Of a DNA stretch of 64,000 nucleotides, positions 49,446 to 60,416 are shown in pieces. The position numbers and the translations under genes were made by a program. The notes beneath the pieces are model-generated. The model was given only the letters and a program-made list of their open reading frames with translations, had not been told where the DNA came from and ran no database searches. How positions within the stretch are numbered: position 1 is the stretch's first letter; the number at the start of each line of letters is the position of its first letter. The DNA is from Halodesulfovibrio sp. MK-HDV (GTDB taxonomy: Bacteria > Desulfobacterota > Desulfovibrionia > Desulfovibrionales > Desulfovibrionaceae), in the NCBI RefSeq assembly GCF_009914765.1, contig NZ_WYDS01000006.1, positions 1-64,000 on the forward strand, written 5' to 3'.

Positions 49446-49748
49446 TCAGGTTTGGGTGGAAATACTTTGAGTTTTTTGAAAAAGGAGTTGATGAACAAAG
49501 AAAATAGCTAGCGTGTCCTTTCGAGATAGTTCGTTGATATGGTAATCAAAAATAATAAGATTGAAAGAGTATTGAGCGTCCTTCTGCAACCATGCATAGC
49601 AGCTTGAAAACATGATGTACTCTTGAACTAAACCTACTGATAGTTGCCTGAATGAGGCTCCCAAAATTTCGAAGGGGATGGGTATCCATACTCTTGATCT
49701 CGATTTAATAGCTAATAAATAATCAATCTGTCCGCGTATATTACTCAT
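49446..49748 (-). CDS. Doubtful small ORF
   Basis: 100 codons, MSNIRGQIDYLLAIKSRSRV at the start and a hydrophobic, aromatic middle. No ribosome site before the ATG, no known domain and no clear terminator. The gap 49392-49970 has no other candidate gene. It may be chance or a decayed gene. Confidence 0.25.
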   Translation of the reverse strand: MSNIRGQIDYLLAIKSRSRVWIPIPFEILGASFRQLSVGLVQEYIMFSSCYAWLQKDAQYSFNLIIFDYHINELSRKDTLAIFFVHQLLFQKTQSISTQT

Positions 49749-49970
49749 GCTTAATTAATTGTGTTCGCGTGCAGAAGTTGGTTGTTGAGAGTGGAGCAAC
49801 GCGTTTTGGATTGTAGATATCCTATGAGAGACGGCGTTATGAGGAGTACCCTAAAGTTAGTCTTTATAGGTAGCATGAACGATACGGTGTCACCATATTA
49901 ACGGGGCGAGCCGTACTATCGAGTCAGCGTTTGTCTGTAGCAGAGAGAAATAGGGAATGGAGGAGAGGTC

Positions 49971-50618
49971 ATGGAGATGAGCAATATGCCTTTGGGAGGA
50001 CATTGGGTGCTGGTGATCATTATGATCATCTTAGCAACATGGGTTATCTATAGATATCTTGCTCCACAAAACGCTAAGGAGTGGCGAAACGCTGGTTTAA
50101 TCCAAGGCTTTATTATTGCTTTATATGCAGAGATGTACGGGTTTCCATTAACCATTTATTTGCTAACTGGCTTTTTTGGGTTGGAAATTCCGTGGCTGCA
50201 TATGCGCGGGCACCTTTGGTCTACTCTTTTAGGGCTGGGTGATGTGGGTGCGATGATTGAAATGATCATTGGCCTCGGGTTGGTAATACTCGGGCTGCTT
50301 CTTCTGGCGAGGGGGTGGTCACAAGTCTATAAGGCGCAAAAAGAAAATCGACTTGTAACCGACGGTCTTTATACATACGTACGACATCCGCAATATACTG
50401 GTATATTTTTGATCCTTTTCGGTCAGCTGGTCCATTGGCCGACGATTCTGACGTTACTTCTTTTCCCTGTAATCGTTGTTGCTTATATATATCTTGCCCG
50501 TCAGGAAGAAAGCGCTATGCGCAAAGCTTTTGGACAGAAATATGTTGAGTATATGAAGCGCACTAGAATGTTTTTTCCTGAGATTAAAAACTGGAAATTG
50601 CTATTTAAAAAGGGCTGA
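49971..50618 (+). CDS. Isoprenylcysteine carboxyl methyltransferase family protein
   Basis: 215 residues, an integral membrane methyltransferase of the ICMT/PEMT type. Hydrophobic segments at about 12-30, 45-70, 90-115 and 140-175; the SAM-binding signature is in RLVTDGLYTYVRHPQYTG near residues 125-142 and RQEESAMRKAFGQKYVEY near the end. The bacterial substrate is unknown (phospholipid, or a small thiol). ATG at 49971 follows GGAGGAGAGGTC. It converges on the small [2Fe-2S] protein gene and its last bases overlap the restored reading frame of that gene. A second member is at 59925-60416. Confidence 0.88.
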   Translation: MEMSNMPLGGHWVLVIIMIILATWVIYRYLAPQNAKEWRNAGLIQGFIIALYAEMYGFPLTIYLLTGFFGLEIPWLHMRGHLWSTLLGLGDVGAMIEMIIGLGLVILGLLLLARGWSQVYKAQKENRLVTDGLYTYVRHPQYTGIFLILFGQLVHWPTILTLLLFPVIVVAYIYLARQEESAMRKAFGQKYVEYMKRTRMFFPEIKNWKLLFKKG

Positions 50619-50851
50619 TATTACCTTTTGATTCTTGTTTAATGTTGTTCTCACGCATCACTTTGTCCACCAACTGGCGAACATCGGAGAGGCATCAGCG
50701 ACCCTTTTGGGTTTTTAACTGCGCATTGACAGTTACCGTCCTTTTTCTCGTTCATGATACGCATGAAAATAGTGGATTTTTTGTTAGTAAGAATATCCTT
50801 TTCTATGTCTTCGGCAGTGTACCCAAAGCAGTAACAAATAAGCTCTGACAT
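50605..50851 (-). CDS. BFD/CopZ-like [2Fe-2S] protein, probable selenoprotein with a frame shift
   Basis: Small redox protein of the BFD-like [2Fe-2S] family: CYCFGYTAEDIEKDIL at the start, then MRIMNEKKDGNCQCAVKNPK. In the plain frame the protein leaves the family pattern after NPKG and stops at residue 66 (50651). If one G of the run at 50702-50704 is skipped, the frame reads NPKGR, then UGA (50697-50695), then CLSDVRQLVDKVM, stopping at TAA 50605. Related proteins have a Cys pair at this place, so UGA as selenocysteine is the natural reading. After the UGA there is an 8-base stem (TGTTCGCC / GGTGGACA) with an AGTT loop, 19 bases on, as in bacterial SECIS elements. The shift may be a sequence error, a real lesion or programmed. 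Confidence 0.6.
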
Positions 50852-50978
50852 TATTTAGCTCCCCAAAAAATATTTACTTTTAAAACCTTATTCTTAAATT
50901 GATCTATTGCCTAAATATCCAACCGCTACGTTGCACATAAAGTATCTGCAAATGTCCCACAATGTTTTTCCCTTATAT

Positions 50979-51012
50979 AGAAAAAGGGCGGAGCTAAAAA
51001 ACTCCACCCTTA
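50979..51012 (-). terminator. Terminator of the four-gene envelope operon
   Basis: AAGGGCGGAG and CTCCACCCTT pair with one mismatch around TAAAAAAA; the minus strand continues with five T. It lies about 205 bases past the stop of the last operon gene, beyond a repeat element. Confidence 0.8.
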
Positions 51013-51097
51013 TATTGTCTGCTTGCCTTGTCTGAACCTTCCAGCAAATAAGCCGTGAACAATTTTTTATAAAAAGGTGTTCTCGCTAATTCGCAGT

Positions 51098-51200
51098 CAA
51101 GAGGGCGTCCCTCTTGCGGGGATGCAAGGGGCTGGCCCCTTGCCTCTCAGGGAGCCGTCGGAGACTCGCCGAAGGCATACCCACAAAAAGCGCCGCAGGC
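51098..51200 (-). repeat. Dispersed palindromic repeat, double-hairpin subfamily
   Basis: Two hairpins (AGAGGGC.CCCTCTT and AAGGGGC..GCCCCTT), then GCCGTCGGAGAC, CGCCGAAGGC and AGCGCCGCAGGC. Same order as at 127-238. It lies between the operon's last stop codon (51219) and its terminator. Confidence 0.7.
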
Positions 51201-51218
51201 TAAAAGGCAAAAGAAGTG

Positions 51219-52496
51219 CTAATCAAATGGCAACTTCACACCGCCCCCGTCTATGTATTTGAAGGAGGATTTTTTTTGCGGCGCTGGCTGCTTTTTCTTG
51301 CTGCTGTATACGCGCTTTGCAGGACGACAGATGTTGCCCTTGATGATGGCGGCTGATCTTTGCAGCACGGTTGCAACGGCATACTTCGTTTTGACTTCAG
51401 TAACCTTGATGGTCGCGATCTTTGATTCCGCACGTCCGAGGGATTCTTTTGTGTAAGGATCAATGAGTCGCTCGCCAAGGTGGTATACATTGTAACGTTG
51501 GCCTTCTTTGAGGTTTCCGCCACCCATGTTCAAGTAAATCTGCTTGCCTGTAACCTTGATCACCTTGAGGGGATATATGGCCTGCAACAACTGTGTGCTG
51601 ATCTTTTGTGAGACCATTTTGGACAGGCGCGCGGAAAGCGTAGCGATGGAGGTTGGAATCTCCCCTTCGTAGGTTTTGTCTACGGTGACAGTGGATGACC
51701 ATTTAACCTGCATGGTGGCGGGCACGATTACTTTGTAGGAAACTTGCGCCGCGATACGCTCTCTGTAGTAGTTTTCACCAGTGATTGTGATGCCCATGCG
51801 GGTGCTTTTTGTGACATAGGAGAGAATTCTGCCTGTCACAATGTAATCAGCACCAAGGCGCATTCCAAGCTTTGCTTTCTCTTCCACTGCAAAATCGTCA
51901 CTCTTCCACTTTTTCTTTTCACGCTGGTAGAGGGCTTCCTCTTCACGATCAAGAACGGTGAAACGCCTGCTCTGTACAATGCTGTCAGTAAGCTTTTGCT
52001 GGAAGATCTGCGGCACGCCGCGTTTGCGGTTTGTCGAGGATGCTTTAAATCCTACGATGGCAAGTTTGCGTCGAGTGGTCGGTGGCAAGCCGGGGGTCTC
52101 GTAGACGTTTACTTTCGCCTTTAAGGTTACGTTCCACAGACCGTTTGTCTTATTCTCGTTTATAATTTTGTAGCCTGCGATGACGCCGGAGCTTTTTGTG
52201 TCGTTTACGGAGGTGCTTTTTGCCGTGAAGTTGGTGTTCCGCTTGCCATTTACCGTTTTTGTCTTGCTGGAGCGCACAGCGGTTGTGGCTGATTTCAGAC
52301 TGACGCCTTTGATCTGGCGTACTGCCTGAATCAATGCATCTTCAATGGCTGCTTCGCGTGACGCTGCGGTGCCTGTGGCGGTAGCGCTTACGATGTCTGC
52401 ATGGCTTTCTACAGAAAAAATGAGAAGCATCATGCAGGCGATGGTAAGAACGCGCAGAATAGTTTTAGGTGGTGTTTTTTTAGAAATCGTCAACAT
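51219..52496 (-). CDS. CsgG/FlgT-like envelope protein
   Basis: 425 residues with a signal peptide (LRVLTIACMMLLIFSVESHA region). Then a module TATGTAASREAAIEDALIQAVRQIKG typical of the FlgT N-terminal / LPP20 type; a middle domain of CsgG/LpoB fold (RKLAIVGFKA, QQKLTDSIVQSRRFTVLDRE and RLGADYIVTGRI); and a C-terminal small beta domain (EGQRYNVYHLGERLIDPYT), like the C-domain of flagellar FlgT. No lipobox. This suggests assembly of a pore or ring at the outer membrane. ATG at 52496 follows AGGAGATGATGG inside the previous gene (overlap 17). It is the last gene of the operon, and the tail (SSKKKQPAPQKK) is basic. Confidence 0.78.
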   Translation of the reverse strand: MLTISKKTPPKTILRVLTIACMMLLIFSVESHADIVSATATGTAASREAAIEDALIQAVRQIKGVSLKSATTAVRSSKTKTVNGKRNTNFTAKSTSVNDTKSSGVIAGYKIINENKTNGLWNVTLKAKVNVYETPGLPPTTRRKLAIVGFKASSTNRKRGVPQIFQQKLTDSIVQSRRFTVLDREEEALYQREKKKWKSDDFAVEEKAKLGMRLGADYIVTGRILSYVTKSTRMGITITGENYYRERIAAQVSYKVIVPATMQVKWSSTVTVDKTYEGEIPTSIATLSARLSKMVSQKISTQLLQAIYPLKVIKVTGKQIYLNMGGGNLKEGQRYNVYHLGERLIDPYTKESLGRAESKIATIKVTEVKTKYAVATVLQRSAAIIKGNICRPAKRVYSSKKKQPAPQKKSSFKYIDGGGVKLPFD

Positions 52497-53916
52497 CCAT
52501 CATCTCCTGACCCATAACCGCGTTGGACGAAGTGTGCTTTTTCGCCTTGCGGGTTGTGGTTTTCTTTGTAGTAATAACAGCCTTCTTCAAGTCTTTTGCA
52601 AGCTTGTTTGACTGTGGTGACCATGTGTAAATTACGCCTACAATTTCCTGATTGTACTCAGGGTGCTTGTATATCCATGTGGTGAGCTTGCGCACACCCG
52701 GAAGATTATTGATGCGGCCTTTGGCGTTGATGGTCTGGTTGAGCGTGCTGATGAACTGCTTGGAGCGTTCTTTACTGCTGAAGGTGCTGCCATCCGCTTG
52801 CTGCTCTATGATTCCGATGGTTTTTTCAATCTCTTTACGTCCGGCTTCCTGACTGAACATGCCGTGGGATTTGAACAGGAACGCAAAGTTTGCGTACGCC
52901 TGTGCATCCGCATGACGCAGAGCCATTTCGCGGCCTTCTGCGCGTTCATCGTAGTCGGTGCCGGTGTAGGCATTGCCTGCCTGACCGTAGGATATGAGCA
53001 CAGGGTAGCCAGCTTCATTGTAGATACGGCGGATGCCGAATTGCTGGAAAAGGGCGGCAGGATTGCTGCCGATGATGTTACGAACGGACTCACCGCCAGC
53101 TTTGCGTGGATTAGGACGCAGTTCGCCTTTGTTTGCGATGAGGGCGTTTACCCAGCTTTTGAATTTTGGAGATGCAACAACAGCAACGGCAACTTCGTGT
53201 CTGCCCTCGGAATTGTTGGCTTCAAATGTCTGTACGGGAATCATACCGCTGAGCTCTGCACTGGCTGTTGTGATGGTGCGCTTTTCAATGGCACTGCGGA
53301 GAAGATCTTTCCTCTTTTCCATCGGTAGTGCTTTGAATTTTTCTGGATCAACACCATTTTCATTCAGCATGGTGTCGAGTTTGCCGCCCATAACGGCTAC
53401 AGCTTTGTCTAAAATTTCTTCAAACTTGTTAGTGCTGCCAAGTTCCTCGCGGGTGAACTCCGGCATTGTGGGGTCTTGTTTGATGCTTTGCAGGGCTTGT
53501 GCTCGTACAGTAACACCAAGGTATTTCATGTACTCGGCCTGCGCCTTTAAGTACGCTTCTTCAAACGCCATGGTGCGGAAGTTTGCCCAGTCCGGATGGT
53601 CTGCGGCAACTTTTACGCGCGCTGTGCTGACGGTGTAGAAGAGCTGGCCTTTGTTCTGTCTGCGCAGGAAGAGAGCACCTTTACCAGAGTCGTTGTACAT
53701 GGAGATGAGGTCATTAAGCTCTACCTTTGGGTCAAGAACCTGCGGTACTGCGGCTTCTGCAACTGCTTCTTCGATGGCAATGGCCTCTTGCAGTGTTGCC
53801 GGAGCAGGTGCTTCAAGGGTTGTTACGCCCTGTGCAAAGGATAGAGTCGGCAGAATGAGTAAAGCAACAAGTGCTGCAATGCAGCGCTGTGCGGAGCGTG
53901 AAAAAAGTATCTGCAT
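52480..53916 (-). CDS. Secreted DUF6844-like protein
   Basis: 478 residues with a signal peptide (CIAALVALLILPTLSFA). The mature protein begins with an Ala/Glu/Pro-rich stretch (TLEAPAPATLQEAIAIEEAV), then a conserved body with DHPDWANFRTMAFEEAYLKA, SGMIPVQTFE, GRHEVAVAVVASPKFK and AEGREMALRHADAQAYANFA, and ends in a basic Lys/Thr tail. From memory it fits the DUF6844 group; its function is unknown. It occurs with LpoB-like and COG3014 genes here. ATG at 53916 follows AGGAGAATCTAACT; an operon hairpin lies 23 bases upstream. Confidence 0.75.
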   Translation of the reverse strand: MQILFSRSAQRCIAALVALLILPTLSFAQGVTTLEAPAPATLQEAIAIEEAVAEAAVPQVLDPKVELNDLISMYNDSGKGALFLRRQNKGQLFYTVSTARVKVAADHPDWANFRTMAFEEAYLKAQAEYMKYLGVTVRAQALQSIKQDPTMPEFTREELGSTNKFEEILDKAVAVMGGKLDTMLNENGVDPEKFKALPMEKRKDLLRSAIEKRTITTASAELSGMIPVQTFEANNSEGRHEVAVAVVASPKFKSWVNALIANKGELRPNPRKAGGESVRNIIGSNPAALFQQFGIRRIYNEAGYPVLISYGQAGNAYTGTDYDERAEGREMALRHADAQAYANFAFLFKSHGMFSQEAGRKEIEKTIGIIEQQADGSTFSSKERSKQFISTLNQTINAKGRINNLPGVRKLTTWIYKHPEYNQEIVGVIYTWSPQSNKLAKDLKKAVITTKKTTTRKAKKHTSSNAVMGQEMMDVDDF

Positions 53917-53936
53917 AGTTAGATTCTCCTAATGAA

Positions 53937-53960
53937 AAGGGGCTGAACGACTTCAGCCCC
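53937..53960 (-). terminator. Attenuator-like hairpin inside the operon
   Basis: GGGGCTGAA and TTCAGCCCC form a perfect 9-base stem with a 4-base loop; the minus strand continues CCCCTTTTCATT. It lies between the lpoB-like stop (53975) and the ribosome site of the next gene, so it can lower expression of the two downstream genes. Confidence 0.6.
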
Positions 53961-53974
53961 AAGAAAGCAGTATG

Positions 53975-54589
53975 TTACCAGGACACTGTGCCGGAATCAC
54001 CGCGTTTGATGATCGGAGTTTCGCCTTCCCAGAAAGCAAGGCCGGTGTTGATGTCTGTAAGCGTGAGCATGAAGTAGTATTCAATCTGGTCTGTGCCAGA
54101 ATCAATACGGTGGTTACGCTGGATGATCTTGCCGGATAAGCTTAAGTCCGGAGCAACAATCTGGCCTTTGCGTGCCACATTTGTCTGGTTCACTTCCTGA
54201 GATTTTCTCAGCTTGCGAGCTTCTGCAACCATTGGATCTTCAGCGCCGTCGATGCCGATGGCGGTGGTTGTTACAACTTTGCCGCTGCGAAGCAGATCGA
54301 TGCGGATTTTTTTAATGAGCTGGTCAGTGTCAATGTTCTGCATTGTGTCGTTGATTACACGGGACACAACCATGACGTAACGACCGCCACCCGGTTTGGA
54401 TACTGCGCCGGAGGAGAGCATTTCGTTAACAGCAGTGGAAGCTGCCTGTTCGAAGTCTCTGTAACCGAGACCCATAATGCGTGCGTTGGTGTCGTTATTT
54501 GGATCAATCATGGTAGCAGCGTTGCGTTTACCACAACCGGTGGTAGCTGCCATAAGAGCAACCAGAAGGAGGAGTAAAAGTTTTTTCAT
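53975..54589 (-). CDS. LpoB-like lipoprotein (penicillin-binding protein activator family)
   Basis: 204 residues. Lipoprotein signal with lipobox TTGC (ALMAATTGCGKR). The body follows the LpoB/CsgG-like fold: GLGYRDFEQAASTAVNEML, GRYVMVVSRVINDTMQNIDTD, LIKKIRIDLLRSGKVV and DLSLSGKIIQRN, then LTLTDINTGLAFWEGETPI. In E. coli LpoB activates PBP1b at the septum; in this operon the partner is unknown. ATG at 54589 follows GGAGCTTATA. It sits 51 bases after the COG3014 gene stop. Confidence 0.88.
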   Translation of the reverse strand: MKKLLLLLLVALMAATTGCGKRNAATMIDPNNDTNARIMGLGYRDFEQAASTAVNEMLSSGAVSKPGGGRYVMVVSRVINDTMQNIDTDQLIKKIRIDLLRSGKVVTTTAIGIDGAEDPMVAEARKLRKSQEVNQTNVARKGQIVAPDLSLSGKIIQRNHRIDSGTDQIEYYFMLTLTDINTGLAFWEGETPIIKRGDSGTVSW

Positions 54590-54640
54590 TATAAGCTCCG
54601 TTGTAAGGAATGAATAAATATATACAGAGTTCTGTATGAG

Positions 54641-56068
54641 CTAATTTCCAAGAGGAATAGTCTGCACGTACGGTACGCTGCCAGTCTGCGGCATACGGAC
54701 GTACACAATAGAATATTTAGTGTCCGGCAATGTTGCTGATGCCAGCAAGCTGCCGTTTGGTGCCTGAATGCGTAGTGTTTTGTTTTTCGGTTTCGGTACG
54801 CGCATCAGCTGGACATTTTTAGGTAATGAAAGCCACGAGCGGGTGTCCGCCTGTGTCATTATTGATGTAAATATGCCGGTGGCAAGTCCCACAAGCTGTC
54901 CGCCTCTGCGTTGTGCCAGATACTGTCCGAAGGTTTTCGTCGCGGTGGAAGCCACAGCTTTTGTGATTGTTGACGTTAGATGCGCTTTATATTCTGCCTG
55001 CATTACCCTGTCAAAGTTGCACAGCATCTTCGAAGTGTATTGTGTAGAGCCAGATGTGGTCTGAATAAATGGCAGGGCTGCGTTGCGTGTTTGTAGTTTC
55101 GGCATGGCAAAAGAAACCATGGAGACTCCCGCACGTTCGCCAGCAATAAATAGCGGAATATCAACCCGTAACTCGTCTACTTCCGGCGCAAGGCCGTTTT
55201 CAAAAATAACCCAGACGGTGGGTTCGCGATATTTGCTGTTTTTTCTTCCGCGCGCAAAGTCGCTGGACATGGCGGTATCCAGCTCTACATACGAGTTATT
55301 TGGAACCATGCCCTTTACGCGCTTCAACATAGTATTACACTTGTTGTAGTCGCTTTTTACTTCGCCGTTTACACAAAAGAATAAACCGGAAAGATATGTT
55401 GCGTACGGGTTTACAAAATCACCGTAGCCTGTCCAGTGGTTAACTTCCGGCATGGATTGATCCACAGACTCTTTTGCAAAATCTTGAATGCGGAGCAAGT
55501 CGAGTACTGGATCATCACCTCTTCTTCGGGATGAAATTTGTCTGTTCTGCTTTGCACGCTGTTCTTTTGCGTCGTTCTGCAGCTCGTTAATTTCTTCCTT
55601 ATATTCTTCCACAGCTCGGCGCTGTCGATCCAGTGTGCGGTTAAATTCTACACGTGCTTTGCTGCCTTTATTAAGCGCAAGCAAAGAAACACCTTTGTAC
55701 ATGTTGATGAGAACTGTGTCGCTTGTCTTAGGCTCGTAGTCCATGAATTCCCTGTTAAAGAGAATTTCCCCCATAACTTTGGATGCCGCGTAAACATCGC
55801 TTTCAGTCTCATCACTTTTTACTTCGGCTTCAGACTCATTCAGGAGTGTGTATGCATCCTCAAAGCGTCCCTGATTGAAGCGAACCATACTTGCGTCGAG
55901 CAAGAAAGGCAGCGCCTTGTCGTATTCTGTATCAAGGATTGTGGAAGCAGTTGTGGTGTCGCCTAAATAGTACGGTTGAAGCAAAGCTTTTTGCTCTTCC
56001 TGCTGCATTGCAGCACAACCGCCTAATAGTGCTACTGATATCAGTAACACGCACAATAATCGTTTCAT
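54641..56068 (-). CDS. COG3014 family lipoprotein
   Basis: 475 residues. Signal with lipobox LGGC (VALLGGCAAMQQ), then helical repeats (FEDAYTLLNESEAEVKSD) and a predicted coiled coil near residues 165-200 (VEEYKEEINELQNDAKEQ). Later GYGDFVNPYATYLSGLFF and VWVIFENGLAPEVDELRV are typical of the COG3014 family, conserved and uncharacterised. The C-terminal domain includes TWSW-free segment SWLSLPKNVQLMRVPKP and IQAPNGSLLAS. First gene of the operon; ATG at 56068 follows GGGGTGGGAA. The protein likely docks at the outer membrane from the periplasm. Confidence 0.85.
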   Translation of the reverse strand: MKRLLCVLLISVALLGGCAAMQQEEQKALLQPYYLGDTTTASTILDTEYDKALPFLLDASMVRFNQGRFEDAYTLLNESEAEVKSDETESDVYAASKVMGEILFNREFMDYEPKTSDTVLINMYKGVSLLALNKGSKARVEFNRTLDRQRRAVEEYKEEINELQNDAKEQRAKQNRQISSRRRGDDPVLDLLRIQDFAKESVDQSMPEVNHWTGYGDFVNPYATYLSGLFFCVNGEVKSDYNKCNTMLKRVKGMVPNNSYVELDTAMSSDFARGRKNSKYREPTVWVIFENGLAPEVDELRVDIPLFIAGERAGVSMVSFAMPKLQTRNAALPFIQTTSGSTQYTSKMLCNFDRVMQAEYKAHLTSTITKAVASTATKTFGQYLAQRRGGQLVGLATGIFTSIMTQADTRSWLSLPKNVQLMRVPKPKNKTLRIQAPNGSLLASATLPDTKYSIVYVRMPQTGSVPYVQTIPLGN

Positions 56069-59924: not shown

Positions 59925-60416
59925 TTACAGCCACCTTCGTACTGTTAAACGGTATTGGCGATAGTCTTCCCCAAAGGCTTTCTCAAGGTATGCCTCTTCT
60001 TGTGGAATAACGTGAAGCCCTAGATACAACGCCATAGGCAGGGAAGTCAAAAGTATCCATATACTACCAACTGCAAGTCCAATTCCGATGAGAATAGAGA
60101 CAAACCCTACATACATTGGATTACGGCTGATTGTATACGCACCACCGGTAACCAGCATGGAGGAAGGCAAGTTCGTTGGGACCTTAACACCAAGGGCGGT
60201 AAAAAGATTATGACCCCACATCATAAACATAAAACCCCCAAGGGCGATGCCTCCCCCTAGTATCATCCGCAAAATGGTAGGAATAAAAGGCAGCGTGCTA
60301 GTCCAGCAGAATTCCATTACAATTCCGGAAATGAGGCAAATATTGAACATTTTCGGTGGCATAATATTTACATTTGGGGAATCAGGCTGCGGACTGAAGT
60401 TGGTGTCGACTCTCAT
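59925..60416 (-). CDS. Isoprenylcysteine carboxyl methyltransferase family protein
   Basis: 163 residues, membrane methyltransferase (ICMT/NnrU type). Hydrophobic segments at about 24-45, 50-72, 100-122 and 122-138; the SAM-binding pattern is VTGGAYTISRNPMYVGF near 88-104 and EEAYLEKAFGEDYRQYRLTV at the end. ATG at 60416 has a very strong site, AAAGGAGGACATT. Together with the MarR gene it forms an inducible pair. Substrate unknown. It is a distant relative of the protein at 49971. Confidence 0.86.
   Translation of the reverse strand: MRVDTNFSPQPDSPNVNIMPPKMFNICLISGIVMEFCWTSTLPFIPTILRMILGGGIALGGFMFMMWGHNLFTALGVKVPTNLPSSMLVTGGAYTISRNPMYVGFVSILIGIGLAVGSIWILLTSLPMALYLGLHVIPQEEAYLEKAFGEDYRQYRLTVRRWL

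Follow-up and report, generated by a model that had tools for sequence, protein, structure and literature searches.

A gene for a Bfd/CopZ-like [2Fe-2S] protein of the selenoprotein type GxUC is found in the window, i.e., the 64,000 nt of contig NZ_WYDS01000006.1 from Halodesulfovibrio sp. MK-HDV that were analysed, and it carries one extra base ahead of its UGA codon. The motif GRUC is present, but only in the frame that follows this break. The extra base is probably a genuine and recent mutation that inactivates the gene, which is an accessory one with a patchy distribution. Positions of the features are in Table 1.

Table 1. Features of the selenoprotein gene and its surroundings in the window
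Feature	Position	Strand	Basis or remark
Bfd/CopZ-like [2Fe-2S] GxUC selenoprotein gene with one extra base	50605..50851	minus	sequence, ORF, read-across
Frame-0 ORF, 66 aa; the motif's U-C pair and the conserved last helix are missing	50651..50851	minus	
Frame break GGGT	50701..50704	minus	inside AAAAGGGTCGC (50708-50698); relatives are one base shorter here
UGA codon, very probably for selenocysteine, followed by TGC	50695..50697	minus	TGA in 92 of 93 related loci (13 + best 80 of 137)
SECIS-type hairpin GTTCGCC-AGTT-GGTGGAC	50665..50682	minus	7/7 pairs
Stretch with methyltransferase gene, selenoprotein gene and repeat	49489..51219		246 bases instead in congener G005; another ORF in G009

The gene as written and its second frame

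The ATG at 50851, which is preceded by GGGGAG, opens MSELICYCFGYTAEDIEKDILTNKKSTIFMRIMNEKKDGNCQCAVKNPKG; frame 0 then continues as SLMPLRCSPVGGQSDA and stops at 50651. Around the break frame 0 has the codons AAA AAC CCA AAA GGG TCG CTG, and the other frame has GGT CGC TGA TGC CTC TCC GAT GTT ... VRQLVDKVMREN ... TTT TAA, where the TAA occupies 50607-50605. A move of one base at this place yields the peptide GRUCLSDVRQLVDKVMRENNIKQESKGNISPF. A preliminary description of this DNA had reported the change after NPKG to a frame with G-R-UGA-C-L-S-D-V that runs to a TAA at 50605, and this is borne out by the sequence, the ORFs and the read-across; its codons, its coordinates and the 19 bases it counted from the UGA to the loop (12 bases plus the 7-base stem arm) are exact. 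It had also placed a frame break two codons ahead of the UGA, in AAAAGGG. The shift exists, but it lies in GGGT, and a single codon, CGC, separates it from the UGA. The stem was given as 8 bases in that description; the stem arm is counted here as 7 bases, and the RNA fold has 8 pairs.

Apart from the break the gene is in good order. The start, the ligand cysteines, the UGA, the hairpin, the tail and the ribosome-binding site are all intact. The motif of the intact protein is C-x-C ... C-x8-U-C, and the cluster cysteines C6, C8, C43 and C53, invariant in alignments A1 and A3, are all found in the protein read across the break, which is 71% identical to its nearest relative. In the DNA alignment of the window gene with 13 relatives, the core around the motif has a single column that only the window fills. 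Thus, with the UGA set aside, one extra base in GGGT is what keeps the window gene from being a single open frame. At the break ACCC-AAAA-GGGT forms a perfect inverted repeat, which may be the trace that a templated insertion would leave.

Conservation of the UGA, the frame and the hairpin

Related loci were read in two sets, 13 from a search of 79 genomes and the best 80 of 137 relatives in named genome contigs, 93 in all; the 57 weaker relatives, left out of these readings, perhaps include Cys forms. In the 79-genome search 14 genomes match the selenoprotein gene, including the window's own, with two partial matches in two frames; each of the 13 others has exactly one TGA within its match. 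By their titles the best 80 of the 137 come mostly from sulfate-reducing and other deltaproteobacterial genomes or bins and some Nitrospirae, with single loci from Armatimonadetes, Synergistaceae and Anaerolineae. The locus sets of the three relative searches share genomes and some genomes occur twice, so that 91 parsed loci hold 87 distinct sequences.

In these 91 of the 93 loci (13 + best 80 of 137) a single frame is open all the way from the first Cys pair to the end of the motif, with TGA at the Sec place in 90 and TGC in one. The other two, L073 and L083, were missed by the pattern and are by eye single-frame with TGA, which brings the totals to 92 TGA and one TGC. None of the 93 is shifted. 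The statement of the preliminary description that relatives carry Cys at the UGA was mistaken. The sole Cys form among the 91 parsed loci, L046 from an Armatimonadetes bin, has a MerT/HMA-type gene nearby.

A search over genomes of the family gave 38 matches in 34 of 287 other genomes (35 of 288 with the window's own), and none of the 38 is split between frames. One TGA is present in 36 of them (G303 has a TAG as well). The two weak matches without TGA, in G154 and G276 (32 and 26% identity), were left out of the family count. From this search 31 further loci (L135-L165) were considered: 25 were parsed, all with TGA, L147, L151 and L157 have TGA by reading, and L160 and L161 are the two weak TGA-less matches. 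L159 (G303:C357:9500-10900) is a plainly decayed copy that has lost the first Cys pair and has a TAG ahead of the motif. No relative of the selenoprotein gene was found in the viral contigs searched.

It is hardly credible that the 66-aa frame-0 product is a real Sec-free protein of the species. It does have its own start and stop, and a fortuitous Cys in its new tail. However it loses C53, which is invariant in all rows of alignments A1 and A3, as well as the last helix, modelled in the nearest relative at residues 54-67, and no locus among the 93 (13 + best 80 of 137) ends in this way.

The hairpin begins 12 bases past the UGA and has up to 7 pairs and a four-base loop. It lies at the same distance in 82 relatives, which are the distinct TGA sequences from the 13 plus the best 80 of 137 loci. 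Seven pairs form in 48 of the 82 rows, six in 30 and five in 4. Standard pairs make up 93% of the hairpin cells, and with one arm slid by 1 to 3 bases this falls to 31 to 64%. The weakest positions are the outermost pair (69/82) and the innermost (60/82). Inner pairs vary on both sides yet stay paired (C-G/T-A, G-T/A-T/G-C). It should be noted that the same stretch also encodes conserved residues, and that RNAalifold, run on 85 rows, keeps only 5 central pairs. For the Cys form, L046, the count is 5 of 7, which is not below that of the weakest Sec rows.

In the window all 7 pairs are formed, and the RNA folds at -15.8 kcal/mol compared with a shuffle mean of -11.1 (z -2.05; 4 of 200 shuffles are as good). 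A scan of the window against Rfam at gathering scores found nothing. The window's loop, AGTT, differs from those of the 13 relatives, which would suggest decay. However it occurs in 3 of the 82 distinct rows, and GGTT in 2; since such loops are found in intact genes, the loop is not counted as damage. A Lys at the usual Gly24 is not counted as a decay sign either, because Lys is also found in L038 and L067 and other residues in L034 and L050.

The machinery for selenocysteine is complete in the genome. A tRNA-Sec scores 84.6 bits, in agreement with ARAGORN, and SelB (385.6 bits), SelA (630.3) and SelD (344.4, with one UGA) are all over their cut-offs; the check for selA-selD put forward in the preliminary description is thereby answered. 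Three formate dehydrogenase alpha (FdhA) genes are also over the cut-off, with one UGA each. These four UGA genes, the three FdhA and SelD, each align to almost the full profile in one frame and thus carry no shift.

From sequence comparison, then, the window UGA is very probably a selenocysteine codon, and the downstream frame is more than a chance one, since the frame with its UGA is conserved among relatives and the hairpin is paired. The selenoprotein gene first proposed in the preliminary description is supported on all three counts: UGA, hairpin and machinery. In an intact gene SelB would bring Sec-tRNA to the UGA, directed by the hairpin 12 bases downstream, and the Sec would be placed next to the last cluster cysteine. 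The UGA, the hairpin and the machinery are observed; Sec insertion and a [2Fe-2S] cluster in the protein are what we infer. With the extra base ahead of the UGA, translation would run out of frame, ribosomes would bypass the UGA, and the product would stop at 66 aa and lack the Sec-Cys pair.

Origin of the extra base

The extra base is private to the window genome among all loci read. Three origins were weighed. The first is a programmed +1 frameshift directly ahead of the Sec codon, a double recoding perhaps aided by the complex of SelB and the hairpin, which had been raised in the preliminary description. The break one codon ahead of the UGA and the conserved downstream frame are what such a shift would have. 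If it were real the case would be striking, as two recoding events would fall within three codons; the evidence is against it. None of the 93 related loci (13 + best 80 of 137) is shifted, none of the 38 family-search matches is split, and FdhA and SelD of the same genome need no shift. Programmed use would require that the shift be conserved or that the other UGA genes have a similar need, and neither is seen; with all 93 loci single-frame, a programmed shift is very unlikely. No +1 signal of the prfB type is apparent at the break. The specific version in which a +1 shift on GGG-T makes the full selenoprotein, with the SelB-bound hairpin acting on both recoding events, is more improbable still.

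The second is a sequencing or assembly error, in which case the organism would have an ordinary intact GxUC selenoprotein gene. Every other feature of the gene is intact and the read-across protein keeps its 71% identity to the nearest relative, both of which suit an error. However, the 83 ORFs that were matched on this contig showed no true frameshift, and a run of only three G is a poor candidate for a homopolymer error. The homopolymer error suggested in the preliminary description is thus a possible explanation and not the favoured one; an error of either kind is distinctly less probable than a mutation.

The sample behind this comparison is the window's own contig, C6 (204 kb), set against 220 kb of the congener G005. 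Of 173 non-overlapping G005 ORFs of at least 100 aa, 83 were matched at 60% identity or more (27,075 aligned aa), and 74 of these are at least 85% covered and open. Among the other nine, four have stops only within the first 14 residues, three have no stop but incomplete cover (one lies where the stretch compared ends), and two, with 3 and 5 stops, are assumed to be antisense ORFs; it is with this assumption that no true frameshift is counted among the 83. Matches split between frames number 8 in the direction from G005 to the own genome and 7 in the reverse direction. Four places in the own genome were inspected and the rest judged by coordinates; as frameshifts of the window genome they were rejected, being start-region or antisense matches. 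In one split row, at own 307-1212, it seems to be the G005 copy whose frame differs, and not that of the own genome. The window gene is outside the 83 because it is absent from G005. The bound on errors is loose, with an upper 95% limit of about 3 per 81 kb, or <1% for the 246-base gene.

The third origin, a genuine mutation, is not among the possibilities named in the preliminary description; it is favoured over a sequencing error by the lack of true frameshifts in the 83 ORFs. Fresh frameshifts in accessory genes are at least as common as such sequencing errors. Since the rest of the gene is intact the mutation must be young. Against it is the fact that all but one base looks selected, and a sequencing error would look identical. 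A real inactivating mutation fits best. The gene is dispensable, being present in only one of nine congeners (G009), and one relative, L159 in G303, is decayed.

In G005 the genes that flank the stretch in the last row of Table 1 lie side by side. In G009 the same flanks enclose about 1.1 kb, and the intact selenoprotein copy is elsewhere in the genome. G008 is without a larger piece here, where the matches listed jump from about 49480 to 53976. An interspersed palindromic-looking (REP-like) repeat at 51083-51180 has many copies in this genome and in several congeners. A four-gene set on the minus strand at 51219-56068 (CsgG-like, DUF6844, LpoB-like and one unnamed) has counterparts in the same order in G009 and a match at the DNA level in G005.

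The selenoprotein gene stands alone after a terminator-like hairpin (51011-50984), and a promoter scan of the minus strand found no promoter-like site. A PEMT/ICMT-type methyltransferase gene at 49971-50618 (plus strand) is convergent with it. A shared operon was rejected, as the two genes face each other and overlap by 14 bases. The only relatives of the methyltransferase among the loci read are a weak one in L096 and a weaker one in the window itself, at 59937-60185 (minus strand).

Gene neighbourhoods and known relatives

Neighbour clusters were compiled for the best 80 of the 137 loci, and 10 of the 25 clusters listed were named, with one representative scanned for each. Around these 80 loci are genes for a TauE-like exporter (22), an ArsP_1/SO_0444-like permease (14), an ArsR-type regulator (10), an ACR3 arsenite exporter (8), an MFS transporter (7), ArsC-like (6), MerA (5), ArsM-like (5), MerR-like (4) and MerT-like (3) proteins; the counts are raw, many loci are from related genomes, and one listed cluster is antisense to the selenoprotein gene itself. 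ACR3 and MerA are over the curated NCBIfam cut-offs, and TauE, ArsP_1 and LMWPc over those of Pfam. The names ArsC, MerR, ArsM and SO_0444 are below the NCBIfam cut-offs, and MerT is just below that of Pfam.

Such neighbourhoods suggest that the intact family deals with stress from metal(loid)s or oxyanions; it probably handles, or protects against, metal(loid)s that react with thiols, e.g., arsenic and mercury. No metal genes were seen around the window gene or around L009 and L011, the two relatives nearest to it, thus a role with metals rests on the other relatives. That GxUC genes, with Sec in 92 of the 93 loci (13 + best 80 of 137), are repeatedly placed among genes for arsenic, mercury and TauE-type export suggests a role that can be tested. 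It would fit what PMC13188914 says of several other selenoproteins.

At E 0.001 a Pfam search of the protein gave no family. The NCBIfam profile NF047645 (CopZ_Nterm_CC) is matched at 56.7 bits, below its cut-off of 100, and NF045877 (CopZ_Nterm_CU) at 27.5 bits (E 2.5e-6), below its cut-off of 190. The latter, the Csac_0668 family 2Fe-2S (seleno)protein (form 2), has a related domain, but its motif is listed as CU, whereas the window has U before C.

A profile of alignment A1 (14 sequences) matches PDB 2hu9 (E 0.0045), an entry titled mercuric transport protein periplasmic component, which we take to be the CopZ domain of Archaeoglobus fulgidus. Its C75, C77, C109, C118 and C119 are opposite C6, C8, C43, U52 and C53; it differs in having Cys at 118 instead of Sec and in its longer chain of 130 residues. 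The cluster ligands of A. fulgidus CopZ are presumably C75, C77, C109 and C119, in which case the Sec would sit beside a ligand and not at one. C41 is replaced by Ser in several intact relatives, e.g., L017 and L075, which is in line with C43 as the candidate ligand.

Modelled with Cys in place of Sec, the nearest relative gives a confident structure (pLDDT 91.2). Its top three Foldseek matches are Bfd chains, with TM-scores of 0.67-0.68 (target length) and weak E values of 0.57-0.93. A likeness in fold to Bfd, the bacterioferritin-associated ferredoxin (PDB 6e6r, 4e6k), is thus tentative; Bfd is without Sec and has a different role.

Among the titles listed in the literature searches, none is on a frameshifted copy of this gene. 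The intact family is in print: the 2026 review PMC13188914 has a "(2Fe-2S)-binding protein (copper chaperone CopZ family) form 1" with motif GxUC as a predicted selenoprotein, and the same CopZ form 1 GxUC family, cd10141, stands in the tables of PMC13188914 and PMC9312934. The family is therefore known and the window gene is one more, damaged copy of it. As a discovery this has small weight; it is useful as an example of a gene that annotation would miss twice, through the UGA and through the frameshift. With CopZ form 1, as described there, the window gene shares GRUC, the N-terminal CxC, a small [2Fe-2S]-type protein and Sec by UGA, and it is assigned to that form by motif and description. 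It differs in that the extra base ahead of the UGA puts the motif in another frame than the start codon.
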